Assembly: GCA_037176705.1 (NCBI GenBank)
Contig: CM073891.1
Location: 51,586,571-51,650,570 of the forward strand
Reading direction: 5' to 3'
From: Molossus alvarezi
Taxonomy: Eukaryota; Chordata; Mammalia; Chiroptera; Molossidae
Length of the DNA: 64,000 bases
A program made the position numbers and the translations under genes. Below, in pieces: positions 10,214-63,979 of the stretch. Under the pieces are notes generated by a model. That model made no database searches. It saw only the letters and a list, made by a program, of their open reading frames with translations, and was not told where the DNA came from. Within the stretch, counting starts at the first letter, position 1. The number at the start of each line of letters is the position of its first letter.

Positions 10214-10763
10214 TTATGTCAAGGTATGATTCCTTATTCCCAGATTGCTCAGCCTTTTTATGAGAAATGTGTGCTGGATTTTTTTGAATGCTTTTTCAGC
10301 ATCTATTGATATGATCATATGATTTTTATCTTTCATTTTGTTTATGTGGTGTATCACATTTATTGATTTGTCAATATTGTACCAGTCTTGCATCCCTGGA
10401 ATGAATCCCGCTTGGTCATGGTGAATAATTTTTTTGATGTATTGCTGGATTCGATTTGCTAGCAGTTTTTTCATGATTTTGGCATCTATGTTCATCAGGG
10501 ATATTGGTCTGTAGTTGTCTTTCTTTGTAGTGTCTTTTTCTGGTTTTGAAATTAGAATTATGCTGGTCTCATAAAACGAGGCTGGAAGTCTTTCTTCTTC
10601 TTGAATTTTTGGAAATAGTTTGAGGAGAAAGGGTATTAGTTCTTCTTTGAATGTTCTGTAAAATTCCCCTTGGAAGCTGTCCAGGCATGAGCTTTTCTTT
10701 GCTGGGAGAGTCTTGATTACATCTTTAATTTCTTTTGTTGTTATTGGTTTCTTTGAGTTTTCT
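10214..10763 (-). pseudogene. L1 ORF2 fragment, reverse transcriptase fingers/palm
   Basis: An open piece of ORF2 with [10 protein letters not shown] and [10 protein letters not shown] motifs of the L1 reverse transcriptase. The palm motif A reads [13 protein letters not shown], where L1 normally has D-K after the F; the changed residue adds to the evidence of decay. A SINE inserted at 10,764-11,020 cuts ORF2 upstream of this piece. Confidence 0.9.
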
Positions 10764-11020
10764 TTTTTTTTTTTTTTTTTTATCCTCACCGAGGACATTT
10801 TTCCGGTTCAGATAGAGTGGGAGGGAGCGAGAGGAAGGGAGAGAGAGAGAGAGAAACATCGACGTGAAAGGGACACATCGAGTGGCTGCCACCCACCTGC
10901 ACGACCAACCAGGGCCGGGGACAAACTGCAACCGAAGTACGTGCCCTTAGCGGGAACCGAACCCGGGTCTCTCCGGACCGCAGGCTGACGCTCTAACCGC
11001 TGAGCCAAACCGGCCAGGGC
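10764..11020 (-). mobile_element. Young Ves-type SINE inside L1 copy A
   Basis: A full-length copy with a long T-run, the tail motif and an intact tRNA-like head (aaaccggccagggc). It is flanked by a perfect TCTTTGAGTTTTCT duplication at 10,750-10,763 and 11,021-11,034. It interrupts L1 ORF2, so it post-dates that L1. Confidence 0.95.
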
Positions 11021-30761: not shown

Positions 30762-31105
30762 TCATCTAAAACTTTTTCCCGCCACCACAGGCAGACAGGA
30801 CAGGGCCACAGTCCTCAGAAGGCACGCTGGTAGCTGTAAGCTTCCAGAGTTGCTGGTCCAGGAGAGGGTCACACACAGCCATACTGGTACCAAACTGTCC
30901 ACTGGTATCACCGGGCTCTGGGGACGCAGGTGTGCTCTTTGAATTTTTCTCATGACTGATGTCCTGAGGGGCCTGGCTGGTGAGAGGAGGCAATTCAGAG
31001 ACCTGCCCAGGCTCCTTGCAGGGAGCCCCTCACTGAGGCCCTGTCTGGGTGTGATGACTGGTCTCTTGCAGTCAGATTCCATGTTGGCATAGACTTGGCT
31101 TAGAA
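30762..31105 (-). CDS. CCDC88C-like: Daple-like, last exon (exon 16), rewritten C-terminus
   Basis: The acceptor has a long pyrimidine tract (cccctcctcctttccccag). Two bases complete the codon begun in the previous exon, and the frame stays open to a stop at 30,762-30,764. Residues [23 protein letters not shown] match the start of Daple's terminal segment (ITPVRAGLS... SEGLPAKSPGRS). After that the frame has shifted relative to Daple, so the last 60 or so residues are new. Vestiges of the Daple tail remain in other frames: TPASPEPG in one and WYQYGCV followed by TGA (30,869-30,892) in the third. Confidence 0.7.
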
Positions 31106-34100: not shown

Positions 34101-37100
34101 CTTTTCCCGAGGGCACCTTGGGGGTATCCTGCTCTTCTGCCCACTTTGAGCAGGATGGGGTGGCCTCGAGGTGTTCCAGCTGTGACTCAGGAGGCTGTGA
34201 AGTCGAGGGCATGGTGTGGTCTGAGGACTCCAGGGGCCAGGAAGTGCCATCTAAGGCTGATTTGAGGTGCCCTCTGCCACCCTCTTTCTTCTGTTGGATG
34301 AAATTAATGAAGGCTTTGGCTCCAATCCAGTGGTGTTTCCTAGATAGAAGTAGAGTTTTAGGACATAGCCACCCCACCCTGACCTTCCAGCAGGTCACTG
34401 GGTGCCCTAACACAGATGGGGTTCCCATCACCAGATGGAAAGTTGGCTGTTAATTAGGGGTCAGAATGAGGGTGCTCTTCCTGTCACCACAGTCATCGTA
34501 TGTGGGCTCAGTGGTGGATCAGAGTTTGCAGTTAATTCACACAGACCCAGGGATGGAAGAAGCGTTCATCCTGGCAGAAACCCACACTGGCCTCTCGGGA
34601 AAACAGAACTTCAAGTGCAGTTCTCAGTTCCTGACTTTGTGAAATACAGGGAGTGGTGCTGGGCCAATCTGGTCCATGTTTGTGTGGAACTTTCCATCAA
34701 ACACCATTTCAGGAGGAGTCAGGGACCTCCTCGTTCTCTGTTGGAGTTACCAATAAGTGAGATAGGCTTATTAGGACCGTTCCCAGCACTGGGGAGTCTG
34801 GGTGAGGGGAAGAGGGCAGGCAGAGGGAGCCGTTTGAATGACAACAGTGGATTTAAGGGGTAAGTCACATGCTGCAGTGAACCGGAAATGGGGGCATCCT
34901 AACCTAACAAGAACCACACCTGGGTTCCAGTCCTGGCTCAGCCACCAAACAGCACTGTGCTCACACAGATCTCCCCATTCTTCATCGGGGTCTCAACTGC
35001 TCTGCTGAGAAGTTCTGTTCTCAACTCCTCTGCTGGGGAGGGGGTTCAGACTGGCTGTGGTTCTGTGATTTCAACAGAGAGGCCTCACAGGATTCATGGT
35101 GATTTGACTTCAAGGCTGGGCTGGGACAGATCAATCTCAAGGGCCAGCTCCTGGGCTCAGGCCTGGGACCAGGGAAAGCCCAGATGGACAGATGGTGGCC
35201 AGTCTCCAGCACCAAGCTGGCCCACAACCAAGGCTTCTGCTCCCTGGAGAAGGGAAAGTGTTTCTGAAACCACCCAGGGGTCCAGTGAACCTGAAGTAAT
35301 TAAGGTAAGACCAAAGGCTCTGTGCTTGAAGACCATGGGTGGCGGTCCAGGTGTCTGACCCAAGTTTCCATTCCCAAACAGAAACATGGTTTTCTATATT
35401 CTGAAATGTTGAGACAAAACCTGATGCTCTTGCTTGAGTGGCTCCAAAACCACAGACTCTGTGCCCCTTAACTGGACTCCTGGCCGCTGGACATTTGCAT
35501 CCCTCTTGGGATGACACTGAGCATGTAGGGTGAGACTGAAAGACTCTCTCAATTGTCTCTGTGCCGGGAGGGACCTGCACACAGATGACCCGCACACAGG
35601 GGAGGACCAGGCCCAGTACTCTGGTCACTGCTGTAGAGACTACTGCTTTCCCCTGCTCGGGAAGAAGCACACTCTCTCTTCTGCTGAAGTTACTGAAGCT
35701 TAAATCAACTCACTTCTTTAAAGCAGGATCACATGACTCATTGTGTTCCCTTGCTTTTTCTTCCAGTTTCTTCCTATTCCTCTGTAAGGCATTTAATTGG
35801 TCTCTGTAGACAGAGGAGAAAGCAAATCTAGTCAGGTTTTAAATAAAACACACATATTTACTCATCAGCCCAGCCTGGGACCTGGCCCAGAAGGGTTGGT
35901 ACTTTTCGGGGACTCAGACATCACAGTGCTCATGACCATTATGATGGCCGAGTTGGGAAAATGTGAATGGAAGCATCCGACGTGTGTCCAGGAACCCTAA
36001 CATCTTGAGGAGACCTGTGTAGGCACCTAGGATCGGGCTGTACCTGATCTCAGGAGAGCAAACTGAACCATCTACAGCTTAAGCTCAGAAACCCCAAGGA
36101 CTTTCTGGCCAGGTCAATTCAGGACATTGGTCACTCAGGGTCATACACAGGGTAGGCTAGATCCTGTGGGCACAGGTAGTGGTGGGGAGAGGTTTACCCT
36201 CAGTGAGTTAGATGGGCATCAAGATAAAAAAGTCAGTTTAGTCAAGTCAGACCTCTGACCTCGACCCCTTCCAGGGTCGGGTTTCTAGTAACACTGCCAT
36301 GGAAGCAAAGTCAAGGACTTCTGGGGCCAGACAGAGAAGACAGGGAGCAACGTGGGCCTAGAAAGACCAGTGGGACTGGTGGAGACTGTGGCTGCTGAGC
36401 CAGGGAGCCAGGTGGGACTGAATGCAGGACCTGCAAACAGCGCTGCTGCAGACGGGTGGAGAGTTGATTGCTCTTTTCAAAGAATCTGGAAACCCAAGTT
36501 GCAAAGCAAAATCTCCCGATTAATAAATGTTGGAAATCAGTTCCCATTGTCAAAAACACAGAAACGACCCAGGAGACACCTCTTGAACCTTGGGCTGCCA
36601 GAGGGCACCCCTGCTCCCAGGGAGTTCCTGAAACACACACATGCGCTTGTGTGGTCGTGTCCCAGAGTGGTGCATGCGGGGCTCTCTACACAATGCTTCC
36701 CACTGGGCCCGGCTGCTGTCCTGTTCCTGTCTCAACAGCTGGGTCCCCTGGTTTCCTTGCTGACATGATAGGGAGAAGGCTGGCTAGTGTGGGGAGGGAC
36801 CAAAAGCAGGAGCATGGCCTGGTCTGGGTCCTGGGAGGTACAGGGAGCACCAGGAGGGAAGGCTGGAGGAAGCTGGGCTCTGCCCTGGAAGGCTGCCATG
36901 TCCCTGCCCAGGCAATGAGTCAGATCACTGGGAGGTGAGTGTTTAAGGGATGCTGGCCTATGAGGCCAAGGAAGGCCTCTGGATCCGAGGGCTTTCCTGA
37001 GAATTCATGATGAAGTGAGCACCTCATGAAAAGTGACAGCTCGTGAACCACAGGGCCCCTGCCCACCGACCCTGCTGTGTTCCCAGAGCCCTGGTTTGAG

Positions 37101-40100
37101 ATCTGGTCTGTGTTACTCTGTTCCCACAGCTGTGTTACTCTGTTCCCACAGCTGTGTTGCTTGGCCTTCTGCTAGAGCACTTTCCTATGTGGGTTTGGCA
37201 CCCCTGAAGCTGCACACACTCACAGAGGGCAGGCACCCCACCCTTCCCCCTGGGGCAGGGCTGGACTGGGGAAGGTGCTCAACTCAGAGCAGGTTCAGGA
37301 ATCTTGCCCACACCCTGGTCTCCTGCACACACTCTCGAATGCAAAACTGTCATCAAATCACAAATTATCCCCCTGGGTACCAGGCTCCTCCTCTTCTAGT
37401 TTGTACCTGCCCAACCACTGCTGGTGATTTTTATCAGCTGGATTATAGAGGGCCAACATCAGACAACAGTCATTTCTACACCAAAACTACAGTGTGGTTT
37501 CTATGTAAACCGCCCTTTGGTGAGTGTCCAGCCCCCTTGTCCATGAGCAGAGGAAGATGGGAGAACAGTGAAGGAGCATCATTACCCTGGGAGTTGGCAC
37601 AGTCTCCCTCCGCCCCCCACTGGCCAGCCATTCCTGATCACAGGAAGGACAGTCCCGTCAGCACAGCACGGAGGGGTGAAGACCACCCTGGGCCCACAAT
37701 GCATCTCAGATTACTTGTCTTCCAAACCACAGTTTTCACCACCAAGGCTCTTCCTCCTGACCTCATTTCTGGCAGCTTCCTAGGCCCCATAGTCCAGCAT
37801 CCCTTAAACACTCCCTTGCCAGTGAGTCTGACTCTTTAGCTGGGCACGGGCATGGCAGCCTTCCAGGGCTCAGCCCTGCTTCCCACCCTTTCCTCCTGGA
37901 GCTCCCTGCCCCTTCCCTGATCACAGACTGGGCCATGCCCCCCCTTTGACACCTTCCCCCACTGGCCAGCCGTCACCCCATCTGTTTCAGCAGCTGACCT
38001 CTAACTCCCATTACCACGCTTCCTTCTGCACCTCCATGAAGCTCCTCGACATCTGTCTTGTGTGCACAGAGCTCTGCTCACATCCCATGACCCCTACTAG
38101 TACCAGTCGATGGGGGAGCAGCTCTGTGCACCTTGCAGTCCTTCACCAAAGCCAAGAGAAGTAAACACCAGCAGAGGGAGGACAACCATGGTCTACCAAC
38201 AGTGCACTGTCCAGCCCATTCAAAGGAAAACAAGCAGAGACAGAAAAGGCTCAGCCTTCCATCTGAATTCTTGCTCTTTACCACTGTTGTATTTTCTAAA
38301 GTGACCTTAACTCCAAAAGCAGATTAAGAAGCATCTGGCAGGAAACAGTGTCTTTGAAAAGCAAACAAAACCTACCACCCCTACTTGCAGAAATCTAGAA
38401 CAATGCCAGGGAAAACAAGAGAAGGAGGAGCTGGTAAGACAGTCGGTCCCCTTGCCCTCGGGACACCCAGAATGTCACGGTCTAGGCTGGGAGCTGAGAA
38501 CCAGGACCCCTTTGTCCACAGGTATCCCCAGCCACACCCCTTACATGGATTGCTTCTGTTCCTCATGGTACTGCTCGTTGCTCTCCATATTTTGCTCTAG
38601 AAGCTCTTGATTCTGCTGGTTCAACATATTGAGCTGGCCCATGAGGTGATGAATTTCTTTCTCCAAATTCTCTTTGAGATGGGAGAGCAACTAAAACAGA
38701 GATCGACAATGTCTTAACCACCATGCATCCCAGTGAATCCACTGCTGGGAATCTACTCCCAGAAGAAGAAAAAGGCCACATATGGCTGCTGAGCCCTGAA
38801 ATGCAGCCTGTCCTGCCTGACACGTGCCCTAGTGCCCAATGTGGAACAGTTCCTGAGGACTCATGTAACAACTAAGAAAAATTAATGTAACCTGGCCAGT
38901 GTGGCTCAGCAGTTGAGGGTCAACCCATGCACTAGAGGTCACAGGTTGGATTCCTGGTCAGGGCACATGCTAGCTTGTATGTCAAATTCCCAGTGGAGGA
39001 CATGCAGGAGGCAACCAGTCGATGATCTCTCTCATTGATGTCTCTCTGTCTCTCTCTAAAATCAATAAAAAAATAATGTAAACTATCTTATGAATATGCT
39101 TTGGGGGTTATATGTGATGTTTTAGATATAATGTCTAAATAAAATGCATGATTAAAATTAACCTCACCCCTTTCCTTTTACTTTTTTAATGTGGCTACTA
39201 GAAAGTTTGTATTACATGAAGTGTCCTGCATTGCATTCCCATTGGACATCTCTGCTCCAGAAGAGGGTTGGCACACTGCCTCTGTAAAGAGCCAGATAGT
39301 AGGTAGTCTAGGTTCCAGGCAAGATGGTGGTCTCTGTTGCAACTGTCCAACTCTGTTATTACAGCAGGAAGCAGCCACAGATAAAATGTACATGCATGGG
39401 TGAGGCTGTGTTAAAAAACACACACAAAAACTCTACTCGTGGACACTAACACATTAATTTCTATTATATTCATTTGCCACCAAATATTATTTTTCTCTTG
39501 ATTTTCCCAACCATTACAACCTCTAAATGCTATTCTTGGTTCACAGATGTATAAAAACAGGGGGGGGTAGGGGGTTGTATCTGAATTTTGGGCTGAAGTT
39601 GGCCAACTCCTTCTCTAGAATATCACCGTGGTTGGTGTAGTAGGAAAGTCTCAAGCTTTGACTTCAGACAAACTGGATTCTAAGCCACTAATTAAGAGGG
39701 ATGAGGATGGGAACCGCAGCTTACATGATCATTGTGAGAATTAAATGGTTGACACAGGTAAGCACAGAGCAAAGTGCCCAGCCGAGAGGATGGAAATAAA
39801 ACAGGACTCGGCTGTGTCCATGCACCGCCCCCATCTTGCAAGAAGCACAGGTCCGATGAAAGGTGTTTTCTAACACATTCCTACCAGCCACTTTGAATGC
39901 CTCTGGCTTTCTCTGGGCCTCAGTGTGACCTTCCCACAGTCTTAGAGCACAGACACCAATGAGGACCCATCCCACCTGGGTGAGCCTAAGGCTGTCATCC
40001 CAGGGAACATGGCCTGGTGTCCCCAGGCCCAGAAGCCCCAGTCCTCACCTCACAGTGATTGTCCAAGCTCTGGTGCTGCTCCTTCAGCTGGTCGAACTGG

Positions 40101-52100: not shown

Positions 52101-55100
52101 AACCACCATTCAGAGAAGGGCCCGGGGCTCAGAGAGTCCAGTGACTTCCCGTAGCCCACAGTGGGGATGCGCAGAGCTCAGACACACAGTGGTAGGCCGA
52201 CCCCAGCCCTGCTCACTCTGTGGGGGCCTGTGGTGTGTGCCCCAACCCCCATCTTGCACCCCATCCTTACTGTTAATACTTACCACCACGGCTCCTTTCC
52301 TCCCAGAGAAAGAAGTGTTATTCCAACCTTTGCACTTCTGATTGAAGCTTGAAGACAGGACTGCCCCCTGTCCCCCCTACCACTGCTGGTTGCCCCATGT
52401 TTCTCCTTGTCCACTTCTTGCTGTGGGACTGGCGTCCCTACTCTTGTCCATCCCTAAAAGACCTCGGTTTTCCTAGGGAGAGCTCGCTGGGCTGAGATGT
52501 GAGTTGTCTCAGAGAATTTCCTGTTCTCCCCCAAGTACCAGGCTCAGGCCGAGGGCTCATGTGATGAGGATCCAGGACCCCAGAGCACACATGTGCCCGG
52601 GACCTGCCTCAGTCCATGCATCCCAGAGTGGCCATGTTGTCTGGACGGGTCAGTGTTGGGCCATGTTCCTATAGTGCTCAGCCATGGCCGAGACACACCA
52701 TCCGTCCGAAGTTAGGGAGGACCAGTGACCTGCCAGGCTCAGGGACGATCGCAGCACCAGCCCTGGTGGGGCGGCACAGATGTATTCAGGAAGGAGCAGC
52801 GCTCTGGTGAGCAGAAAGGCTGTAGTCCCAGGACGCCTGGACCACACAGGAGAGCTCTGGTTTGGGGACTTCAGCACTGCCCTTCTCCCAGGGCCTCTGA
52901 GCCCAGTCCTGCCTCCCAGGGCTGGGGCAGGACGGTCACGGTGTCCTCCCAGGGAACCGGTGCACAGAGGAGGCAGGAGTGGGACCCGAGACACAGGAAG
53001 ATGAGTCATGCTGGAGAGGCGGGCACACCGCCAGTCCTGTCTGTCTGGAGGAGGGACAGGAGAGGATCCAAGGGCAGGAGAAGGGTCATCGGTCATGTCT
53101 GAGGCCTCCTGGGAGCTGGGCCCGATGGGCACCTTGCGGGCCTTCTGCGGCAGACCCTGGGGACCCACCGAGTTGGAGAATCTCATCTCTCTCAAGGTCA
53201 ATTCTCTTTCATCTTGGCTGAGGTTCCACTGCCAGTTATAGAGACATGACCTGTGCCCGGCCCACATGACTTGACAAAACCCAAACTGTCTGGTGGCTTT
53301 CCCTGTGCTGCGCTGCCTGAGAGAAGGCACAAGATGGCTTCCTCTCGTCCCACGAGGAGAGGACAAACTCTGTGGCAGCTGCTCCTATGTGAGGAACACG
53401 GTGCTTTACAGGGACAGAGGAGCAAGTGACAAAACCTTGGACCTTTCAGAAGAGACCTGGAGACACCACCACCCAGGGGAGGGACAGTCCCAATTCTCAC
53501 CCAGAGATGAAGGACCAGCAGAGCACGACCAGCAGAACCCCCGTCTCCTGTCTGCGCCCATGTCCCTCCCACTGCCGGTGCAGCCTCAGTATTTGACACT
53601 GGCAGGACTCACGGGCAGTAGGACAGACACCCAGACACCCAAAGAGCACCAGAGTGCCCCTGCCCTCCCTCACCAATACCCGGCCCCTGCTCAAGGGGTG
53701 TTCAGAGCCTGCCGTGCAGCTGCACCCTCCTCGGTGTGGCTATGTGTGCCCATGCCCTCTGCCCCATCCTGGCCCCTCCATGGCCCTTCCTGCCATGTGA
53801 ATGGAGGCCCTCCTACCTGCAGGACATGCCTGCTTGGGAAGCCTGCCTGTGCTCAGAGCTCTGTGTCCCACTGTGGTCCTGGGAAGACCCAGGGTGGTCC
53901 TGAAGGGACAGGAGGCTGATCCATCTCTTCTTCCTCATCCCATCCACTGAACGGAGAAAGTAAGCCTGGTCTCGTTGTACCCCCAGCAGAGCCCCTCCGT
54001 GGTCCTGCACACACACCTGCATGTCCTGCTTCACGGCTTCTCTCCACGGCCCACCCACTGCTTCTCATCAGGGCTGCTCTCTGCATTCAGCACCCACTCG
54101 GTGCTGGACCCCTGACCTACACCACTCATGCCATCTTCTCACACCTATTCGGTGGGTACATCATTAACCCCATTTCACAGAGGAAGCAACGCAACACACA
54201 GGCTAATCCTGTCCAGTCACACAGCTGCGGAAACATGTCATGCTGCCTTGTGACTCCTCAGTGATCACTCTTGTCCCTCTGTCACAGTTGTGCTGTCACT
54301 GGATCTGCATCCTCCCAGCTGCGCATCCTCGCCGACACCTGGGTGCTCCACGTGGCCGCCTCCATGCCGGTGAGTTCCCGACACCACCCCTGGTTACCTT
54401 GTTGCTGAGCTGCTGGTTCTCCTCCTCCAGCTCCCTGCACCTGAGGCTGCTCTCCTCCAGCACCAGGGACACATCCTGGATGGTGCTCTGTAAGCTCTGT
54501 CTCTCCTTCTCCAGCTTCAGGATGTGGCTGGAGGCACATTCTTTGAGTTCAAGCACAGAGGACTTCCTGGAGGCTAAAGGGCAGAGGCAGGTCAGAGCCT
54601 GGATTCCAGGGGCCTTGGCTGCCACTCTCTGCCCCCAGCCCTGAGGCATACATAGGCGTGAAGGGCCTGGGATGGGCTTGCATAGCTCAGCTGGGTGCCC
54701 TCCCTTTTCACAGGGTGCTATTGCTGTCAGCACCTGAAGTTTCCTCAGGCAGTTAGGCCCCGCTACTGGCTCAGATGAGGTCTGTTAGGGGAGCAACTCA
54801 GAGCCTAAGAAGAAAGCAGGTGACACGGAGAAGCCCATGCAAAAGTTCAACACCATGGAACTGCTAGAACCACTTTTTACCAAGTTCTAAGCTGACCGTC
54901 AAATTGAGGATTTTAGAGACTAACAGAGATGGCAAACAGATGACATTTCTTTGCCATCCTGAGAGCAGAGGGAGTCTGGGCTGGCTCAGCTGGGAGGGAG
55001 CAGACACAAAAATTGACTAGGATGTCTGCCAGGAAAGCGGTTGGGTTGCGCATGCCCAGGACTTGCCACCCCTGAATAAGGTCCTTTGGACAGAGGTTTC

Positions 55101-58100
55101 ATGTTGTAATTTCACACTGTATTGGAGAAAGAATGAGATGGTATATCTAAACTGTTTAAAAACTCTAAAGCAGATGAAAACATAAGTCAGATAAAAAAGG
55201 CAGATTTTGTACTTTGATTTTACACAGCTTAAATGCAATTGGAAAAGGGAGCACGGACTGAAGGAGAGCAGGCGTCCTGGGCCCCACCTGCCACCACCAG
55301 GTGTGTGACTTTAGGTAAACCCTGGGGCTTTTTCAGGAGAAAAAATGAAGGAACATATGAGCCCTCGAAAGAGGGGTCAGGGCGGCTTCTGCCCTTGTTC
55401 CTCCAGTGCCAATCCTCAGCCCTGGGAGCCTTGTCACACTGTATTGCTGACACGGCTGCACCCCACCTGCTTCTTATTCATCACCACACATAGAGGGATG
55501 GCATTCATAGCAGGTTTTTCAAGCTTATAACAAAATATGTGTGTTCAGTAACTCAGCATGATCATAGAGATGAAAAAGAATCCGCATCCCACTCTGAGTT
55601 CTCATCCAAAAAGACCCAAGCAACAGGAATTGCACCATCGAGAGGCCCCGACCCCATCCCAGTGCTAACCACACACAAACACTCATGTTCCCAACATACA
55701 ATGTGTGAGCGGCTTCGTCCTGACAAGGCTACAAAGACAAACTGAAACTCCACCCATTCACATCTGATCGTTCAAATGGCACCTTTGCAGCATTCACTTC
55801 AAAAACAACATTTAAAAAAATTGTGGTGAAATATATCCACATAGATTTTACCATTGTAACCCTTTTTCAGTGTACAGTTCTGTGCGTTAGCTATATTCCC
55901 ACTGTTCTGCATCACAACCGTCCCTCTCCAGACTTTTTCATAATCTCACACCGAAGTTCTGTGCTCACGGAAGATCACTCTGAAGGTTCTCCAAGTTCAA
56001 CAATGGAGTTGATTACAAGCCTCATTTCCATAAAAGCCAGTGACTCAGAGACAGTTATGATGACACAACAGTTTATTGGGGAAACAGTCAATGGTTCTTT
56101 ACTGGGTGCTACACTCATGAGCACCCCGAGAGCCAGAGTAATGGGACATCTTTTAGTGAGGCAAAGGCTCTAAGAACAGCATCCCTTACTGCTGCCCCAC
56201 GGGCCAGGCACTGTCTCCTCTCACAAGATATGCAGGGCAATCCTGTGAAGCAGCCTCACCACCCCCGTTTTGCAGAGAAAAAACTGAAGTTTAAAGGAGG
56301 TCACCAAGCTAACAAGTGACCATGTCAGGACTTTGAGCCAGGTCTTTCTGACTCAAGAAGCCACCACAACACTCATGAAAAATTATATTCATGCTTTGTT
56401 CATTACCTGCCAGCTAAGCAGGAGGAGCTGGGAACATCCAGAATAAACCACGCTCACTGACCTGAAAGGGCTCACAAACTATACTGAGCAGCCTGAACCA
56501 GTGAGGCTTCCAACCCCATCAGACACCTTGCCTCTTACAGAAACACATTTGGTCTGAGCTGGTCCTCACCAGCCTGCACTACTTTTGTGCTCCGCCAGAG
56601 GGCAGTGGTTCTCCCCATGAACCTGAACTCCCAGAGCCAGGATCCCATCCTCTGCCCAGATTAATAATTTAATGAACTGATTTTAGGTTTGAAACTGATG
56701 GAACCTCTTGAAGAGAAGGAATATCCAGCTGCTTTCAACAGCCTTTCCGTGATTCTTTGGAAAATTTATCAGAAATGATAAAGCAGCCCCCTCCCCAAAC
56801 CAGCCTAAAGCCTTCTGTGCTGGGTGAAGTGCTAGGTAAACATTGACTCACTCTCCCAGGGACATGTGTGCCTGTGTTTGAACACAGGAATGGGCTTATT
56901 GTTTGCCGCGTGCTGAGGCTTCCTGTTGCACTGAGGACTGCCTCCCTACCCACCTTCCACACCTCATCTGGGGTACAGGGCAGGGACCAGAACACAAGGA
57001 GCAGAGGAAGAGGCCTGGGTTTCCTGAGAAGCAGCTACTTAGCAGCCCCAACCCAGGGAGACAGAGAGCAGAGTGCATCCATCCTGCCCAATTATGCAAA
57101 TGAACCAAGGAAATAATGCCCAGGAAATATTCTCCATTTATAATGGACATCAGTGACCACTGGGGACATCTCCTGCCCCCCAGAGTTTCAGTCATCTATG
57201 GAGAGATCTAACATGCCCCCGGGCTGTCAGCATGCTGTAATCTGGGCTCCCCTGGGACTGTCCATGTGGAATCTGAGAAATCTGGCAACACCTACTTTGT
57301 ATTTTATGTCCTGACATCAAGGCTGCTAGACCCTAATGTTCTCCTTGGGGAGATCGCAATGAAAGGGTTGCAAATGGCCGTTGAATAAACTCCTATGTAC
57401 ATGGAGTGAGGATGGGCTGACACCCAAGATTCACAGCCAAGGTTTCAGCCCCTGAATGAGGAAGAAGCTACAGCCAGGCTAAATCCCAGGCACCACGGTG
57501 GCTGCCTACCATCTGAAAGGTCATCCAAGAGGTCTGTGTTCTCAGACAGCTGCTCCAGCTCCCAGACCACGTGGGCGGACTCACTCATGCACTGTTTCTG
57601 TTGGGTCTGGAGGACCATGTTCTCTTCCAAAAGTTCCTCCATGCGTTTCTGGCCTGCGTCCTGTTCCTAGTGCAGGATGAGGGGAAATCTGAGGATGCAG
57701 CCTGGGACCATTTCTGGACAGGTTCTGACCCTGGGCATCTACTTCATTCCCCAGGATGAAGGGGCTCCATGTGCCTGCCCACTTCCAAACATACAGAAAT
57801 GCATAGAAATGACTCCAGCCCGGGACCTTAAGAGTTACACTCACTAAAAGATATGTTGACCCAGTTACCTAGGTGAGGAAGAGACCTGAGGTCTCTCACT
57901 GAGTGCTGTCTGATCAGAGTGACACACAGCACAATCCTTTAAAGCCATATGGTGACCGGCAGCTTTGTGGCCCCATAGCAGGCCTCACACACCTTGGAAC
58001 AACCATGGAGACTCACACATCACAGCTCAACCCACACCACAGACACCAGCCCTAACCCACAGACGTCCATCCTCACAGAAAAGTAACACAGCAGTCAAGC

Positions 58101-61100
58101 CCCATGTGTCTTGTGGGTGTTAAGTGGTGCCCACCGAAACTGCTCAGCTTAGCAAGCAACTCTCGGCACTCAACAGGCCACACCAGGAGCTGCACATGGG
58201 AGAAGGGCACAGCATCACCCTGGAGCTGCCCCCATCTGTCTCACACGTGCTGACAGCAGCTGTAATACCAGTTCCAGGTGGCGAAGCTTAGATTTAAGCT
58301 GCAGGTTCTCTGTCTCCAGCTCCTCAACTTGATTGCGCCAGGCCCGAGCCACAGTGAGCTGTTCCTCCAACATGGACTTGGCTTCCATTAAAATGCTGTT
58401 TTGCTTTCTCAGCTCCTGGTCAGCAAAAATATACATGAGAACCATCAGATAAGGCACTCGGTTCATGACCACAGCGCTCTTCCAGGCACGTGGACCCAAA
58501 CCACCACCTCGGGATAAACCTGCTGCCCTGGGAAGTTCTGTCTCCACCTTTTAGCACCTGCACCTTTTTCACTAGGCCAGGTCCAATGGACCTTATGGAA
58601 AAATATCCCCGAATCAAGAAATGATTTACATTTGGGAAAGAATACACTTACTCAGTGTCTAGTGTTTTTGTTTTTTTAATCTTCTTTGTTAATTCTCACC
58701 TGAGGATATTTTCCCATTGATTTTTGATGAGAGGTAAGGGAGGGACAAAGAGAAGGAGAGAGAAACATCCATGTGAGAGAGACACATCGATTGACCCCGA
58801 CTGGGCCAGGGAGCCAACCTGCAAACCAGGTATGTGCCCTTAACTGCAATCAAACCTGCGACCCTTCAGTTCGAGGACTCATGCTCTCACTGCTGAGCCT
58901 AACTGGCCAGGGCCTCAGTGTCTATTTATGCTGACCATGGCTGGAGAGTGTTTGACCTGTATAACCTCGTCTGGGTGGACCAGTGTACCTGCTGACAGGT
59001 AAGGGACCTCACTGAGCCCTTTTTCTTAACAAGAAAGGGGTGGGGCTAAAAGTCTGCTCTGGGTTTGAGGGCTGAGTCTAGGCCTCTCAATTCAACATTT
59101 ATTCTCCTGATCTGGGTCCTGGGGAAAAAATGGCTATTCGGACGAGTTTTTGTTCAGTCTACAGTTCCTGGTGGAACATTTTACACAAGTGCTCTCGCAG
59201 AAACAACAGCTCTCGGCAGTTTCTCAGAAATGAGGTGCTTGTAAGACACACAGACAGATAAGTGCTGTGGGCCACTGTGGGTCAGGCACCTGCTGGTGGG
59301 GAGTGCAATGCAGGTCCCTAGCAGCCTCTCCCTGAGGAGTCAGATGGACTCAGTCCTGTCCCAGGTGCCCAGCCCATACCCGGCTGAGGTTCAGCTTGTC
59401 CTCCCATTCCTGCTCCGAACCCTCCCAGCACCACTCAGTATTTCAGGGGGACTGAGTCTCCCTGAATGCCTTCCCGTTTGTGAACATCCATACATGGGAA
59501 TGTGTCCATTTCTCTCAGCGGGCAATTTTCCAACCCTCGCCTCACTGACAAGGGGGAGTGGGCCAATGGCTTCTGCTTACACATCACGTGTTCCTTTTCC
59601 CGACATGAACCACTGTCTGAGATTCATGGAAGAGGGGAAACCATGCACCTAACTGTCAGTGGACACAGTTCTGATCAAAGCCTGGCAGCGGGAAGGGTTT
59701 GGACGTTAACACCCTGGATTCTCCTGGCCGTTCTCTCGCTGCCTGTCCCTGGGCCTGCAGGAGGCAGTCTCTGTCCCTGCCTCACTCACTCTTCACAACA
59801 GCCCTGAGAGGGAGGCAGGCACAGAGCCTTCCTACACATGAAGATCCTGACCTGGGTACATTAAGGAAGGAGCCCCAAGGCCAAGCAACACTCTTCTTTT
59901 TTTATATGCTTCTCATCGGTGACATTGGGCAGATTCACAGGGAGGGCACCTGGGCCATCTTTGGACCCCTGGACCTAGAGGAGGGTCCCCCACATGCTGT
60001 GTGTCCACAAATGTGAGCCAACATGAACGTGAGAATCGTGTTCCACTCTCTGCCCATCAAACCAACACTGTGGCCATTCCGGAGATGAACCTCATGATTT
60101 CTCATTTTTCTCCCCAGACTGCAAGTCCTTTTATTGCTGAGAGATGGGCTTATACTTGATTTGTGTGGTAACCACTAAGTGCCTTGTGTGTGCTAGGCCC
60201 CAGGCATGCCTTCAAATAAGGCCCTGTCCCTCCCTCAGGACCTCAGGGTGCGCATAGAGAATCTGGCTGGGCCCTGCTGACAGGAAGTCTGCGGACAGTC
60301 TGCAGGGTTGTTATAACTACTCCAATTCAAGGATGCGTGTGCAACCAACTCTGCCCCACTGTCCCCGGACCCCTGAGAACACTGAGACTCATCCTCTATA
60401 GTGGCCTGGACTCCACTGACCACACTGTTTCTCTTGTAATTCACTAAGGCAAATGTAAGGCATCACTGTTTCACAATAAAGTTATTAATCTATATGAAAA
60501 CTATTGCTATTACTATCCAGAGGCATGCAACTTGAGAACATGGGAAAGGAGTTCCCATGTGAAACTCTCCAAAAGCTCAGAAGCTCCCCGAAGCAGGAAG
60601 AAATCTTGTTTTGTGTTAGGTCCCCTGCTCCTGGTGCACGGCTTGGCACCACACAGGCATTAATTGGTGGTGGCTGCATGACTCAGCCAGGCTGCATGGA
60701 CAGGCCAGAGACCACAGAGACAGAGACTGAGCACTTAAATCTACCCCCACCCATAGGGACAGAGTGTTGGGGTAAGATGTGTAGTCTGCGTAAGGTCCCC
60801 AGAGTGCAGAAGGGGCTGCAGAGGCATGAGTGGACATCCTGATTTCTACCCGCTCACTAAACTGCCTCTAACCGTGGGATCAGCAACAAGGGCAAAATTC
60901 CCAAGTCCTGGGAAAGAGGGTCTGGAACCTTTGTCGATGTGAGGCAGTTGGGTGAGAGGCCATAGTGTCAGTAACCTGCCCAGGTCTTGCTCTCTGTCCT
61001 CCCCTTGCCCTGACACCCTCCCCTGAGTGGACCCAGAACCTCGGGATCAGAGTGCGCTACCCCACTGAGAGCTCAGTGTGGGACCTGCACAAATACCAGG

Positions 61101-61385
61101 CCTCTCCCTCTTTTGTTGTAGAAACCTCAAGAAGTAGTACAATTATCTCTGTTTTTTTAGATGAGGAAACAATCCTGGCAAGGTTAAGCCACAGAAATTG
61201 CAAAGTTCTTTAAAAAAGATTTGTGAATATGTCCTTGCCAATTTGGCTGAGTGGTTGGAGCGTTGGCCTATGGATCAAAGGGTTGAAGGTTGGATTCAGT
61301 CAAGTGCTCCTAGCAATGTTGCAGGTACAATCTCCAGGCCCTGGTCCAGGTGCATGCAGAAGGCAACCAATCAATGTGTCTCTCA

Positions 61386-61443
<58 letters not shown>

Positions 61444-63979
61444 CTCACTCTCTCTCCATCCTCCTCCCCTTCTTCTTTCTATGAAGAACAATGGAAAAAA
61501 ATTCCTTTGGCTGGAGATTAATAAAAAAAAGTTTTTTGAATAGAAGGTCATCACCTAGGCATAAATTAGCAAAAGAAAAAATCCTAAAGGCAATCAGGGT
61601 CCTTCAACAATATTTCTTCCACTAAGAGAGGGAGACCTTGGAGGGGTACAGACGGCTGGGGTGCAGGGGAAGGTCAGCTGGAGAAGTCTCCTGGCTCCTC
61701 TTCCTCTCTCAGGACAGGAGTGCCCACAGCCTCCTGCCCGGGAGGGCTCACCTCCATGCCGGCCTTGTAGAAGTCCAGGTTGCGAAGCTCGTCCTTGCAG
61801 TGCACCAGCTCCATCTCCAGCTGGTCTGCGTGTTTCACCTTCTTCTTTAGAAAGTCCAGCTGTTTGCTAAAGGTTTTAACATGCTGGGCCAAAACCACCA
61901 CTTGGATGTTCTGGGAGGTAAACAAAGGCAGGGACTGAGCTCAGACACCCACTGGGGTGGGGACAAAAGGGCCACACCCCTGCAGTCCCAGAACAAGCCA
62001 GTTCCTGGTGGCCAACTGTCTGTGTGCAGGCCACTGGGAGGGAGGGCCTATGCTGCAACCAAAACATGTCATCCCCATAGCAGCTCTCAGGACACCTGGC
62101 TCTCAGGCAGTGTTGCTCTGAGTGGGAAGAAACAAGCCTCTGTTGATAGGTCCTATGTTTACCACCCTGGACCTGGGGCCACAGTGACTGGGGCATCCTA
62201 GTCCCCCACCCTCCATGCATGGCAGGCCTCCCACTCACCTCCTGCTTCAGTACCTGCATACCCAGTGCCCGCTGGTTTACCTTGTGCTGGCTGTCCCTGA
62301 GCTGTGCGGTCTTCTCCTCCCTAGGAGATTCAGAGGATGCATGATGAGGGCTTCTTCAGAAGCACCTGAAACCCCACCACCTTCGGGGACCACAGGGGGA
62401 GAGGGAAGGGGACCTGGCTTCAGGGGATGAGGAGGGGAGTCTGCGTGTGGGGTTTGCATAAATGCTCCTGACTCCAATGTCATTTTGAGTTTTCAATGCC
62501 TGCTCTCAGACTACACCTGGCAGACACAGTTTCCTCTGAGGGTGTGGGGCAGGTAAGCAGACCCCAAGAGCACATGCCACTCCACTGCCAGGTAGGTATG
62601 AGGCCCACTGTTGGGGGGTAATAGGGGAGCAGCTCCTGAGATGGCTGGCAAAGGGACATCACCAGCGTCAGAAAAGGTGGAACAGGCTGACCAGTTGGCA
62701 GACAAGCATCCTCCCTCTAGCCAAGCACACAGACATCGGCGTGTGGCCATTGGAGACCCCACTGGGCCTGAGGGTGAACAGCAGGCTGCATTGGGAAGAC
62801 TGCAATGTCTGCAGGGGCAGGAGCCCTAGAGACCCAGCAGAACCCCTCCTGTGCAGCCCAGGGAGGAAGTGGACTAGTCCATCGTCAAACAGGGACCGGG
62901 CTGGGAGCAGCATTCAGAGACTCCAGGGCCCAAGTCAGAGCTCTCCTGTTCATAGTACCGCATGGCAGTGACCCTCAGGTGCTAGAAATGTGTTGGTGAC
63001 ACATGGCCGCAGAGCAGAAAATAGGGGGTCACTGGAGCACTCACAGCTCCTGCGTGACAAGACACAGCTTGGCCTTGGTGATCTCCAGCTCCGCATCCAG
63101 GTGCTCCTTCTCCTCACTGGAGTGGCTGCTGGGTGGCCTGGATGTGGGCTCAGTGCTGGAGGACTTCAGGGGGCTGGGCAGCTGCCTGGCCGGGAGGGAG
63201 TCCCGCTGCACAACCTCCTGCAGCGGGCAGAGAAAGGGTTCTCACCAGCCTGCTCCTGTGCCCGGCACAAGGCCCACACTCAAACTTGGAAAAATGACCA
63301 AAAGACAGAAGAGTCCTGGCCAGTTTTAGTCAGTGGTTAGAGCATCAGCCCACAAACCAATGAGTTGTGGGTTCAGTCTAGGTCAAGGGCATGTACCTTG
63401 GCTGCAGTTCATCCGGGCCCTGGTCAGGGTTGTGTGGGAGGCATCCAGTCCATGTGTCTGTCACATCAATGTTTTTGTCTCATTCCCTCTCTCCCTCCCT
63501 CCCACTCTATCTGAAGATATGGTATATCAATAATGAAATAAATCTCTTTTACTTTATTTACCAACCTATGGAATGTACTTAACTGACTATTTGCAAATAT
63601 TTATTATGTTATAAAAGTATCAGAACCTGCATGCAGTAGTTTAAAGTTCCATGATTAGCTCTTAGAAGAGAAATTAGAAACTATTTTATTTTAAAGTGCT
63701 TCAAACTGTATATATTGTCTACAGGTTATATGTAATATATTATTTTGATAATGATATTAACTTCATCTGAGTTTTTAGGTAGATGATTCAGGTCTTACTG
63801 TAGTAATATATGAAGAGGAATAAATATACCTCGTGCAGACAATTGAAAGCTGGAGTTGTAGATAAACCAGCAAACTGCTCATCTTGGATGTTAATTGCAG
63901 GTGCTATGGCATCAACGGGATCTTCTTGATCCTTTTTCTTTTTCTCTGCCTTTTCTGTGCCTCTGGTACTGTCTTCCAT
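30762..63979 (-). CDS. CCDC88C-like: Daple-like coiled-coil protein gene (CCDC88C paralogue), whole gene
   Basis: Sixteen exons, listed separately, join into an unbroken frame of 1,156 codons plus stop (150+2,977+344 bases). All junctions have GT and AG dinucleotides and matching phases. Residues 51-962 follow Daple (CCDC88C) segment by segment, at roughly 60% identity where I compared by eye from memory; they also resemble girdin (CCDC88A) less closely. Daple is a cytoplasmic scaffold with an N-terminal HOOK domain, a long coiled coil, and a C-terminal part that binds G-alpha-i and Dishevelled. This copy has no HOOK domain, lacks about 240 residues of distal coiled coil and most of the C-terminal region, and has a new C-terminus. 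Real Daple is strongly conserved among mammals, so I read this as a separate, shortened paralogue. Function is inferred to be coiled-coil oligomerisation or scaffolding only. Confidence 0.85.
32265..32462 (+). repeat. MIR element
   Basis: A good MIR match from memory: cacagtggttaagagcccaggctc, gatcccagctctatcacttcttccctgggcaagtgcttaacc, then ctcacctcacatggtagttagaacaaaatgagttagata. Confidence 0.85.
33082..33265. mobile_element. Palindromic MITE, Tigger/mariner-like
   Basis: Imperfect inverted repeats of about 65 bases (ACAGTCGTACCTCTCCACTT... and its mirror ...AAGTGGTGAGGGACGACTGT) flank a central (TGTAG)n stretch (about 33,155-33,178). The right end is followed by TA, the mariner target; the left TA is lost. 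The ends begin CAGTCG, like pogo/Tigger-type elements. There is no transposase. Confidence 0.8.
34101..34339 (-). CDS. CCDC88C-like: Daple-like exon 15, post-coiled-coil basic segment
   Basis: Acceptor ctacttctatctag, donor GTAGGA. With the two bases carried from exon 14, it encodes residues 963-1042: [20 protein letters not shown], matching Daple [20 protein letters not shown], then a Ser/Pro/Glu-rich stretch with LESSD and SQP words shared with Daple. The exon ends in phase 1, as in Daple just before its PGDLKPKR segment, but splices in frame to the terminal exon. Confidence 0.85.
34340..35713 (-). other. Daple-like intron 14
   Basis: GC-rich intron without recognisable exons. A MIR-like word run (cctgggttccagtcctggctcagccacc) occurs near 34,918-34,945. 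Open frames on the minus strand (35,137-35,670) lack splice context. Confidence 0.5.
35714..35803 (-). CDS. CCDC88C-like: Daple-like exon 14, end of coiled coil
   Basis: Acceptor ctcctctgtctacag, donor GTGAGT. It encodes [17 protein letters not shown] followed by [11 protein letters not shown] (residues 933-962), matching Daple [20 protein letters not shown]...YDPPPKK. The aromatic YKFYD motif conserved in Daple and girdin has become NESCD. Ends in phase 2, as in the family. Confidence 0.85.
35804..38544 (-). other. Daple-like intron 13
   Basis: It contains a short tandem duplication (37,110-37,160). A 268-codon non-ATG open frame on the + strand (37,033-37,839) and other frames here lack splice support and look like chance. 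No other exon seen. Confidence 0.5.
37110..37160. repeat. 22-bp tandem duplication
   Basis: The unit TGTGTTACTCTGTTCCCACAGC occurs twice and a third time in part. Each unit ends in a CCCACAGC word resembling a splice acceptor on the + strand, but the gene here is on the minus strand. Confidence 0.85.
38545..38690 (-). CDS. CCDC88C-like: Daple-like exon 13
   Basis: Acceptor gatctctgttttag, donor GTAAGG. Residues 885-932: [20 protein letters not shown] then [19 protein letters not shown], matching Daple [20 protein letters not shown]... [18 protein letters not shown]. Coiled-coil heptads persist. It ends with AT (phase 2), completed by the A of exon 14 to give isoleucine as in Daple. Confidence 0.92.
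38891..39076 (+). mobile_element. Ves-type SINE
   Basis: Head cctggccagtgtggctcagcagtt, core gattcctggtcagggcacatgc, then gaggcaaccagtcgatgatctctctc. ATTAATGTAA (38,881-38,890) and AATAATGTAA (about 39,072) form the target-site duplication. It lies in intron 12. Confidence 0.9.
39620..39780 (+). repeat. MIR-like remnant
   Basis: Word order resembles MIR: ctttgacttcagacaaactggattc, a gatgaggatgggaac block, then cattgtgagaattaaatgg and acagagcaaagtgcc. Strongly diverged, in intron 12. Confidence 0.6.
40049..40214 (-). CDS. CCDC88C-like: Daple-like exon 12
   Basis: Acceptor cactgcacccccag, donor GTGAGG. Residues 829-884: [20 protein letters not shown], then [20 protein letters not shown] and [14 protein letters not shown]. 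Daple reads [20 protein letters not shown]... [22 protein letters not shown]. Seven residues between QHQ and DNHCE are missing, an in-frame deletion. Confidence 0.92.
40260..40380 (+). repeat. MIR 3'-half remnant
   Basis: gctgtgcaacctcaatcaaatcctcaacctctgggcctttgttttt resembles the 'gtgaccttgggcaagttacttaacctctctgtgcctcagtttcc' part of MIR. It borders exon 12. Confidence 0.55.
41067..41288 (+). mobile_element. Ves-type SINE
   Basis: Head agggccagtttggctcagtggtta, core gattgcttgtcaagggcaggaacctgggtc, ccaatcaatgtgtctctctcacattga and a pyrimidine tract. In intron 11. A MIR-like run follows at about 41,345-41,445. Confidence 0.9.
42335..42478 (-). CDS. CCDC88C-like: Daple-like exon 11
   Basis: Acceptor gtttccctccaacag, donor GTAACC. 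Residues 781-828: [20 protein letters not shown] followed by [20 protein letters not shown] and ELD, matching Daple [20 protein letters not shown]...[23 protein letters not shown]. It starts with one base that completes the codon left by exon 10, so the frame holds even though the intervening Daple exons are absent. Confidence 0.88.
42963..43018. repeat. (CA)-rich microsatellite
   Basis: Alternating CACA/CATGCA words (acacactcatgtacacacatgcacacacgcatgc...). Imperfect. Confidence 0.8.
43105..43290 (-). mobile_element. Short tRNA-derived SINE (second family)
   Basis: tttatttattgattttagagagag, ccacttatttatccatttattggttg, ccctaaccaggatcaaccctcaacc, then accaacggagccacccagccagggc. The same family as 13,740 and 16,383. 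Confidence 0.85.
43567..43598. repeat. (CCCAC)n short tandem repeat
   Basis: cacccaccccacccaccccacccacccc: about three copies of a 9-base unit. Confidence 0.9.
45056..45386 (+). mobile_element. L1 3'-end fragment
   Basis: Resembles the 3' end of the L1 family of copies A and B, in opposite orientation: taccacaagatctcacttatttgtggaatataaagaac, ctgacaaacctccgataaagagg, cagactatagtactgtgaaggtgg, ending in an A-rich tail near 45,380. It is a 5'-truncated copy in intron 10. Confidence 0.85.
46016..46143 (-). CDS. CCDC88C-like: Daple-like exon 10
   Basis: Acceptor ccaccctgtccctgcag, donor GTGAGC. Residues 739-780: [36 protein letters not shown], then NSSHSN, matching Daple [42 protein letters not shown]. 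Reading through the donor gives an immediate TGA, so splicing is required. The exon ends in phase 2, whereas I would expect phase 1 in Daple; the new phase fits exon 11. Confidence 0.9.
47555..47810 (+). mobile_element. Old L1M-type 3' fragment
   Basis: gttcataccctttggtcccataattacacttctagggatgatcc, caaggatgtccaacattatttaaaatgc, aaacaacctaaatgcc, ccattaaaaatcatggg: the familiar L1M word order, diverged. Confidence 0.75.
47827..47855. repeat. (TG)n microsatellite
   Basis: A nearly pure TG run (about 14 units) in intron 9. Confidence 0.95.
48091..49122 (-). CDS. CCDC88C-like: Daple-like exon 9, large central coiled-coil exon
   Basis: A single 1,032-base open exon (344 codons, residues 395-738). 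Acceptor catta tgttttcctgcag type with a good pyrimidine tract; donor GTG/GTGAGC. It begins [20 protein letters not shown] and continues through [60 protein letters not shown] to MKRLRTLR, matching Daple segments in order ([48 protein letters not shown]). There is no stop, frameshift or proline-rich break over its whole length except one SPQ and one QPQ, as expected for a continuous coiled coil. This is the strongest single piece of evidence for selection on the protein. Confidence 0.95.
49378..49628 (+). mobile_element. Ves-type SINE
   Basis: Head gtgccctggatggttaggctcag, core aggtcaagggcatgcacctgggttgcaggtttgattcc, caaccagtcattgtgtttctctcacatcaatg, a pyrimidine tract and the tail cattcttgggtgaagataaa. 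Confidence 0.92.
50262..50522 (-). mobile_element. MER20-like DNA transposon remnant
   Basis: gaccatcttttatcctgtggggctgcc, tgtgctgcaggacacttagcagcatccctggtctctacccatc, gtcatgacaatcaaacacaaatc, gtgcccctgggaggtaaaatctgtccctgaacctcaactgcag: antisense MER20 word order. In intron 8. Confidence 0.75.
50657..50794 (-). CDS. CCDC88C-like: Daple-like exon 8
   Basis: Acceptor gtctccggctctgtag, donor GTAGGC. Residues 349-394: [46 protein letters not shown]. Daple has [20 protein letters not shown]... ADKARQ; about 28 of 46 positions agree by eye. Phase 0 at both ends. Confidence 0.93.
50795..54397 (-). other. Daple-like intron 7, no exon seen
   Basis: A 3.6-kb GC-rich intron. Large open frames occur by chance on both strands (52,650-53,366 minus; 53,293-53,919 plus), with no splice context or familiar protein. 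A MIR-like antisense run lies near 54,120-54,235 (ccatttcacagaggaagcaac ... cacacagctgcgg). Confidence 0.5.
54398..54573 (-). CDS. CCDC88C-like: Daple-like exon 7
   Basis: Acceptor ctctgccctttag, donor GTAACC. Residues 290-348: [58 protein letters not shown]. Daple reads [44 protein letters not shown]. Three residues are missing after TIQ, in frame. It starts with two bases completing the alanine codon from exon 6. Confidence 0.93.
54574..57509 (-). other. Daple-like intron 6
   Basis: Holds an L1M-like antisense 3' fragment at about 55,815-55,975 (gtgaaatatatccacatagattttacc ... tttcagtgtacagttctgtgcgtt) and an antisense MIR-like run at about 56,215-56,360. No additional exon. Confidence 0.5.
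57510..57666 (-). CDS. CCDC88C-like: Daple-like exon 6
   Basis: Acceptor catcctgcactag, donor GTAGGC. Residues 238-289: [52 protein letters not shown]. Daple: [48 protein letters not shown]. An extra LLDDLSD-type stretch precedes the splice. Ends with one base (phase 1). Confidence 0.93.
58269..58415 (-). CDS. CCDC88C-like: Daple-like exon 5
   Basis: Acceptor atatttttgctgaccag. Residues 189-237: [49 protein letters not shown]. Daple: [49 protein letters not shown]. The donor reads CTG/GTATTA, a weaker match than the others. If it failed, the frame would run on for about 15 codons. Confidence 0.9.
58668..58913 (-). mobile_element. Ves-type SINE with 11-bp duplication
   Basis: Tail attctcacctgaggatattttcccattg, core acatccatgtgagagagacacatcgattg, and head ending in aactggccagggc. 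CTCAGTGTCTA at 58,651-58,661 and 58,914-58,924 is the duplication. Confidence 0.93.
61231..61530 (+). mobile_element. Ves-type SINE with expanded (CT)n
   Basis: Head gtccttgccaatttggctgagtgg, core aggttggattcagtcaagtgctcc, ccaggccctggtccaggtgcatgc, caaccaatcaatgtgtctctcacatc, a pure CT run, and the tail ggctggagattaataaaaaaaa. Confidence 0.9.
61752..61910 (-). CDS. CCDC88C-like: Daple-like exon 4
   Basis: Acceptor tgtttacctcccag, donor GTGAGC. Residues 136-188: [53 protein letters not shown]. Daple: [53 protein letters not shown]. Phase 0 at both ends. The DFYKA word is the clearest anchor. Confidence 0.92.
62239..62320 (-). CDS. CCDC88C-like: Daple-like exon 3
   Basis: Acceptor ctctgaatctcctag, donor GTGAGT. 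Residues 108-135: one base completes Leu, then [20 protein letters not shown] and MQVLKQE; Daple [27 protein letters not shown]. Coiled coil. Confidence 0.9.
63045..63217 (-). CDS. CCDC88C-like: Daple-like exon 2, start of Daple-homologous region
   Basis: Acceptor tctctgcccgctgcag, donor GTGAGT. Residues 51-107: [57 protein letters not shown]. Daple: [20 protein letters not shown]... [29 protein letters not shown]. The Ser/Pro linker and the start of the coiled coil are retained; everything before this in Daple (HOOK domain) has no counterpart in the window. Starts in phase 0. Confidence 0.9.
63313..63543 (+). mobile_element. Ves-type SINE
   Basis: Head gtcctggccagttttagtcagtgg, core tctaggtcaagggcatgtaccttggc, ccgggccctggtcagggttgtgtgggagg, then a pyrimidine tract and ctgaagatatgg. 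It lies between coding exons 1 and 2, at the edge of the GC-rich block. Confidence 0.9.
63830..63979 (-). CDS. CCDC88C-like: Daple-like first coding exon (exon 1), unrecognised N-terminus
   Basis: An ATG at 63,977-63,979 opens 50 codons ([20 protein letters not shown], then [20 protein letters not shown] and [10 protein letters not shown]) ending GAG/GTATAT in phase 0, which fits exon 2. A possible acceptor (tttattgtag) ends at 63,991, leaving 11 bases of 5' UTR with an in-frame TGA two codons before the ATG, so the frame must start here. The protein segment is acidic/lysine-rich and not like Daple or any protein I can place. It sits in AT-rich sequence beyond the GC-rich block. It may instead be the first exon of an unrelated minus-strand gene. 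Confidence 0.55.

Follow-up and report, generated by a model that had tools for sequence, protein, structure and literature searches.

A probable amplified family of rod-only coding genes derived from CCDC88C (Daple) in the bat Molossus alvarezi

Introduction

Daple, the product of CCDC88C, combines a long coiled-coil rod with interaction regions at both ends. According to excerpts of the published descriptions, its N-terminal coiled-coil region leads to the pericentriolar recycling compartment (PMC6702192), PI3P and dynein-dynactin have been connected with its HOOK and coiled-coil regions, and its last 150 or so residues are required for FZD7 binding (PMC6702192, PMC4484057). In the open-access papers searched, no bat or Chiroptera CCDC88C paralogue, no CCDC88C-like gene and no expansion of a Daple family was found.

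The window analysed here is a stretch of 64,000 nucleotides, C14:51586571-51650570 of a 2.5 Gb genome. As argued below, the gene in it probably belongs to an amplified family of chimeric coding genes derived from CCDC88C, in which the rod has been parted from both ends of the protein.

Results

Rebuilding the locus on the minus strand gave 16 exons running from 63979 to 30762, all bounded by GT/AG, with matching phases and a single open frame of 3,468 nt, as an earlier note on this DNA had described. The 1,156-codon frame of that note is indeed open in the window copy, stop included, but the conserved frame comprises only the 1,042 codons of E1-E15 (Table 1). The human Daple query was a working sequence of 2,028 residues with F at 1675 and the C-terminus YGCV. 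The published protein, as given in excerpts of PMC4484057, agrees in its length of 2028, in F1675 and in a PDZ-binding motif at 2025-2028. E2-E15 encodes a long coiled-coil rod of the CCDC88 type. Aligned with residues 213-1481 of this Daple sequence it has 588 identities in 987 residues (59.6%), against about 60% judged by eye before; the gaps are whole codons only and there are zero stops, so the claim of a rod free of stops and frameshifts stands. The end proposed for E9, 48094, reads open, but the donor is most likely the GTGAGC at 48091, one codon later and open too, which makes the tabulated end my choice between two open alternatives.

No domain was found in a Pfam search of the E1-E15 protein (E up to 0.1), no relative in a PDB search with the E2-E15 protein or in a search of E9 against collections of genome contigs and viral contigs, and nothing in an Rfam scan of the window at gathering thresholds. 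A LINE-type reverse transcriptase fragment lies at 10217-10807 of the window, minus strand (Pfam RVT_1, E 2.7e-18).

Table 1. Features of the rod-only gene and of its junctions (window positions)
Feature	Position	Strand	Basis
5' limit of CCDC88C homology (breakpoint, about)	63518	.	C1 10228255 aligns there; alignment ends inside repeat
E1, new first coding exon (ATG, 50 codons)	63830..63979	-	non-CCDC88C; conserved ATG, GT donor, no stop, length divisible by 3 across copies
E2, Daple 213-270	63045..63217	-	splice model and Daple alignment
E3, Daple 271-297	62239..62320	-	splice model and Daple alignment
E4, Daple 298-350	61752..61910	-	splice model and Daple alignment
E5, Daple 351-399	58269..58415	-	splice model and Daple alignment
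E6, Daple 400-447	57510..57666	-	splice model and Daple alignment
E7, Daple 448-509	54398..54573	-	splice model and Daple alignment
E8, Daple 510-555	50657..50794	-	splice model and Daple alignment
E9, large rod exon, Daple 556-912	48091..49122	-	splice model and Daple alignment; donor shifted 3 bases from 48094
E10, Daple 913-955	46016..46143	-	splice model and Daple alignment
Deletion junction, 5.66 kb of CCDC88C, Daple 955-1211 exons	45946	.	C1 10203692/10198029 abut at window 45947/45945
E11, Daple 1213-1260	42335..42478	-	splice model and Daple alignment
E12, Daple 1261-1322	40049..40214	-	splice model and Daple alignment
E13, Daple 1323-1371	38545..38690	-	splice model and Daple alignment
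E14, Daple 1372-1401	35714..35803	-	splice model and Daple alignment
E15, Daple 1402-1480, final exon with conserved frame	34101..34339	-	alignment and other copies
Start of earlier E16: former CCDC88C intron, cryptic acceptor	31050..31105	-	alignment to C1
Deletion junction, 8.3 kb of CCDC88C, Daple about 1482-1968 and GBA	31047..31049	.	C1 10184638/10176313 abut, 3-base overlap
Daple last-exon stump (1969-2028), two -1 frameshifts, TVWYQYGCV and stop out of frame	30869..31049	-	frameshift-aware alignment

Reading the window as a paralogue presupposes a separate CCDC88C in the same assembly, and one is present, with HOOK, GBA and PDZ-binding ends, at C1:10176133-10300102 on the minus strand. 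The locus was compared in pieces, a subset of its exons being fetched, and these pieces match the human Daple query from residue 19 to 2028. There are five HOOK-side matches, to Daple 19-116 and 131-216 at 67-88% identity (the 88-116 match lists stops), and the locus also carries exons for Daple 1003-1212, the GBA stretch LEEFLQESN and the end TVWYEYGCV. In E9 its identity to human Daple is no higher than about 69%; the objection that it is thereby too diverged to be CCDC88C was rejected, given the HOOK, GBA and PDZ-binding end. A match at C26:5285000-5299979 (minus strand), where E1 is open, was rejected as the true CCDC88C, because the joining of Daple 794 to 1181 marks it as a decayed Daple-like relic. 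A locus on C28, 45% identical to Daple in E9, is presumably Girdin/CCDC88A; a CCDC88A-like exon at C28:39026400-39027800 is partly X on translation, and the record contains a stretch of N.

The alignment of the window to the C1 locus runs through introns at roughly 70-80% identity and, judged at the level of sequence, the rod-only family is derived from the CCDC88C locus itself. Upstream of 63518, where E1 lies, no CCDC88C homology was found besides repeat matches. Both deletions appear as clean junctions in this intron-level alignment, the first removing C1 10203691-10198030 and the second 10184637-10176314; the Daple 1003-1212 matches fall inside the C1 stretch missing at window 45946. At 44961-44764 a faint similarity to Daple 955-1211 scored above all 200 shuffles but below 3 of 34 real-DNA stretches and, since the deletion of that very part was found, it was set aside as chance.

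The rod of CCDC88C exists in one more close copy (E5-E7, E9, E12, E15), on the plus strand at C1:12328612-12352957, about 2 Mb from CCDC88C. It has a broken E1 5' of the rod, with the ATG and one base lost, and its E9 compared with that of CCDC88C gives a dN/dS of 0.72 (0.41-1.46). E1 and rod lie close together at C1:12.33-12.35 as well as at C26:5.29-5.30 Mb, from which the likely route leads from CCDC88C to C1:12.3 and thence to C26 and C14.

The window had been pictured as holding a single gene, a picture that gave way to at least 18 copies with E1, E9 and E15 on C14. The search with the rod protein found E9 in at least 18 C14 copies (8 window-like and 10 shorter), a lower bound obtained by scoring the best 46 of 5,143 first-look candidates, in clusters at 39.2-42.1 and 51.5-54.7 Mb. 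Each of the 18 has E1, E9 and E15 in order on one strand, and the clusters show both orientations. Stops are absent from E1 and from E9 in all 18, and none is listed for E15; a stray E9 fragment at C14:52808287 does contain one.

A DNA search with E1 returned 23 matches, located 5' of all 18 copies, at C14:42.12, C26:5.30 and C1:12.33 Mb and, for two partial ones, on C14. All 20 full-length matches (150 bases) have the ATG, no stop and a GT donor, and their four length classes (150, 156, 159 and 168) are divisible by 3. The suspicion that E1 is a chance exon, raised by 98 of 654 control stretches that held one as good, was reversed by this conservation, which upholds the earlier view of E1 as coding.

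Matches to E2-E7 and E11-E13 occur in 18 of 18 C14 copies and to E14 in 17, in a tally of these ten exons for which 150 of 175 candidates were scored in one of the searches. A stop is listed for part of these matches. With E2, E6 and E13 it is shared by the match of the window itself, where it falls inside a splice site. The E3 match lists a TGA in 11 of 18 copies (copy B included) and the E11 match a TAA in 4 (copy C included); as E3 of copy B and E11 of copy C read open, the listed codon lies just outside the exon in those two copies. A second TAG is listed for E6 of copy B, yet this exon reads open. Three of the 18 copies were followed over E1-E15, namely A (the window), B (C14:51.554-51.584 Mb, adjoining it) and C (52.38-52.41 Mb), and all three are open without any frame-breaking lesion in the conserved coding part. 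In copy B (C14:51554265-51583536) a deletion has merged E9 and E10 without loss of frame; an extra E8-like piece with a one-base deletion is found at about 51568436-51568584.

Outside C14 and C1, at least 17 contigs carry more diverged Daple-like E11-E13 matches of about 48-67% identity (for example C9:2382433-2386330, C41:1334475-1338388 and C45:263834-267729), many of them a few Mb from the contig's first base. Their E11 and E12 matches are mostly without a listed stop, and those to E13 list one to three.

MAGE genes mark the mammalian X. The 54 MAGE matches fall mostly on C63, with three on C62, some on C188, C191 and C243, and one each on C7, C12 and C26; there are none on C14, which speaks indirectly against its being the X chromosome, and C14 is therefore probably an autosome. 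The MAGE-type clusters on C63, C188, C191 and C243 are large, and some show equal scores at repeated spacing.

Constraint was gauged by dN/dS in its simple NG86 form, with bootstrap limits and without a gene-conversion model, all within one genome. Over E1-E15 the values are 0.35 (0.22-0.55) for A-C, 0.47 (0.37-0.61) for A-B and 0.51 (0.39-0.68) for C-B. In E9 the window gives 0.47-0.57 against the six 39-42 Mb copies, and nine short copies pooled give 0.44; the six 39-42 Mb copies pooled give 0.74, hence constraint is weak among those six. Eighteen copies with E1, E9 and E15, together with dN/dS below 1 for A, B and C over E1-E15, are what a multicopy coding family would show, less clearly so in the 39-42 Mb cluster.

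The most serious competitor to a coding family is a young segmental duplication carrying a dying gene, whose copies would owe their open frames merely to recent origin or to homogenisation by gene conversion. The rate of change lends itself to this explanation. With the human Daple query as outgroup, 153 changes are window-only and 42 CCDC88C-only (about 3.6-fold, p 5e-16), and the window compared with CCDC88C over 775 codons of 10 exons gives a dS of 0.315 and a dN/dS of 0.60 (0.47-0.75), which by my own arithmetic means about 0.9, near neutral, on the stem branch of the family if dS is split evenly. Plain neutrality nevertheless does not fit, because about 20 stops would be expected in 1,042 codons (again my own arithmetic) and none is present. 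Neutral simulation of the rod to 59.6% identity produced 15 or more stops in every one of 120 runs against none in the actual rod, which bears out the earlier contention that so open a rod is unexpected of a neutral pseudogene. The small distance between copies A and C, only a few percent, could also be read as mere youth, but the tree of E9 within C14 (length 0.388) is long enough for 8.7 stops over 546 bases without selection, and 0 are seen in the 18 copies (P 1.6e-4). A dying duplication would likewise account for the lost and frameshifted tail and for broken or partial copies at C14:52.81 and 53.17 Mb, on C26 and at C1:12.33; it does not account for dN/dS below 1 among A, B and C, with upper 95% limits of 0.55-0.68, or for an E1 length divisible by 3 in 20 of 20 cases. 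I consider it improbable.

Relaxed constraint or positive selection acting on a still-coding gene fits these rates. The dN/dS of the family is far above the values for a strongly constrained scaffold, and of 14 exons compared between A and C, 9 exceed their flanking introns in similarity and 5 do not, which counts against strong constraint. Arginines of the rod changed to Q or H in 27 cases and to C, W or stop in 4 (p 3e-5), in the direction of selection, but this test is given little weight because lineages are mixed in it. Retention of L, I, V and M fails to separate selection from neutrality, the observed 0.84 lying beside largest simulated values of 0.845 and 0.866.

Less probable again is a duplication unit, selfish or structural, that carries the coding frame along as a passenger: clusters in both orientations on C14 and the Daple-like E11-E13 matches on at least 17 contigs besides C14 and C1 would suit such a unit, for which openness at E1 and E9 in 18 of 18 copies is unexpected.

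The 113-residue tail formerly ascribed to E16 has to be abandoned, since it consists of 56 bases of former intron joined at about 31048 to a twice-frameshifted stump of the last Daple exon. When frameshifts are allowed for, Daple 1969-2028 aligns to window 31049-30872 at a score of 159, against a maximum of 62 in 200 shuffles. The stump retains the PDZ-binding end of Daple (13 protein letters, not shown) at 30898-30869 in the wrong frame; the motif itself is spelt at 30898-30872, two frameshifts off, and the window copy has no C-terminal PDZ-binding motif. The GBA motif is missing as well, its block being deleted, and no relic of Daple 1482-1968 was found in the window (16 of 100 shuffles scored as high as the best candidate). 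The statement that this protein ends without signalling motifs was accordingly correct, GBA being deleted and the PDZ-binding end out of frame. With the stump frameshifted and nothing of Daple 1482-1968 found, the relevant frame is E1-E15. A single 1,156-codon paralogue with a tail of its own, open and spliceable as that frame is in the window copy, is very unlikely and largely refuted by this origin of exon 16, by stops at the 6th codon past E15 in copy C and the 14th in copy B when read as in the earlier model, and by the existence of at least 18 copies. The tail also suggested a decaying pseudogene, which was rejected for everything except the tail on the open rod, the selection tests and the other open copies.

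Whether the gene is HOOK-less is undecidable from the window alone, because E1 sits 21 bases from its edge; no HOOK was found in the 783 bp 5' of E2, and the genome search, with HOOK matches only on C1 and C28 and none on C14, confirmed that proposal. An ordinary full-length gene with its HOOK exons just past that nearby edge is refuted at this sensitivity, as tblastn of 150 kb upstream (E up to 1) gave low-complexity and L1-like matches only and no HOOK, genome HOOK matches are confined to C1 and C28, and CCDC88C homology stops at 63518.

Discussion

Genome searches and dN/dS together sustain the core of the earlier note, that of a Daple paralogue with a selected rod frame, distinct from a CCDC88C that keeps both ends. 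A stretch of CCDC88C was duplicated with its introns; it begins in the intron that follows the Daple 160-216 exon and extends past the last exon. One deletion removed the exons for Daple 955-1211 and another those for about 1482-1968, GBA included, and two frameshifts in the window copy moved the PDZ-binding end into the wrong frame. The ATG comes from a first exon of 50 codons that is new and does not stem from CCDC88C. C14 has at least 18 copies of this chimera, grouped in two clusters, and the exons examined are open despite fast sequence change. The family shows how a set of chimeric genes took shape: a block was duplicated, lost two segments, acquired another first exon and was then amplified.

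The predicted product consists of the rod alone and has 1,042 residues or a few more; in copy B, the only one of the short copies to be read through, it would have about 847. By analogy with Daple, this protein could assemble into coiled coils and might also go to the pericentriolar compartment; it would keep self-association, perhaps location, and lose output. Among possible roles the likeliest, if still tentative, is that of an amplified rod that joins Daple-type scaffolds or competes with them; the copy pattern prompts the guess that this might take place in the germ line. A new structural use comes next, and a family without function is the least likely of the three. An attractive though speculative hypothesis is that the bat has made the rod of a Wnt/G-protein scaffold into at least 18 fast-evolving, probably autosomal, rod-only predicted proteins with a new N-terminus, serving dosage-sensitive conflict or germ-line structure and possibly acting as dominant-negative partners of Daple. 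The rod and the signalling ends of Daple are usually studied as one protein; here they are split, and the rod alone is kept in many copies whose open frame bears signs of selection. The family therefore offers a natural test of what the rod does on its own and of whether it poisons the polarity and Wnt functions of Daple.

Amplified testis gene families on mammalian sex chromosomes have many open copies in both orientations and change fast. The C14 family resembles them in all these respects and differs in its probably autosomal location, with 0 MAGE matches against the crowd on C63; germ-line expression, if it occurs, would make it their counterpart on an autosome.

The closest comparison is with Daple/CCDC88C itself (human protein and C1 locus), with which the family shares the order of the rod exons and, at C1, alignable introns. 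Daple/CCDC88C has the HOOK, residues 955-1211, GBA and the PDZ-binding end; the family is without all four and has E1 instead. As far as the excerpted sources go, Daple meets dynein/dynactin, G-alpha-i, Dvl and FZD7 through parts that the rod-only family has lost (PMC4484057, PMC6702192). Girdin/CCDC88A and Gipie/CCDC88B share with the family a long coiled-coil rod, and Gipie is also without the C-terminal region; both are described as HOOK-bearing, separate paralogues, whereas the family stems from the CCDC88C locus (PMC4484057). Daple-V2, a short human isoform, is likewise a half-Daple without the N-terminal HOOK but, according to PMC6702192, it keeps the signalling tail and drops the rod, the reverse of the bat family, in which separate genes keep the rod without the tail.
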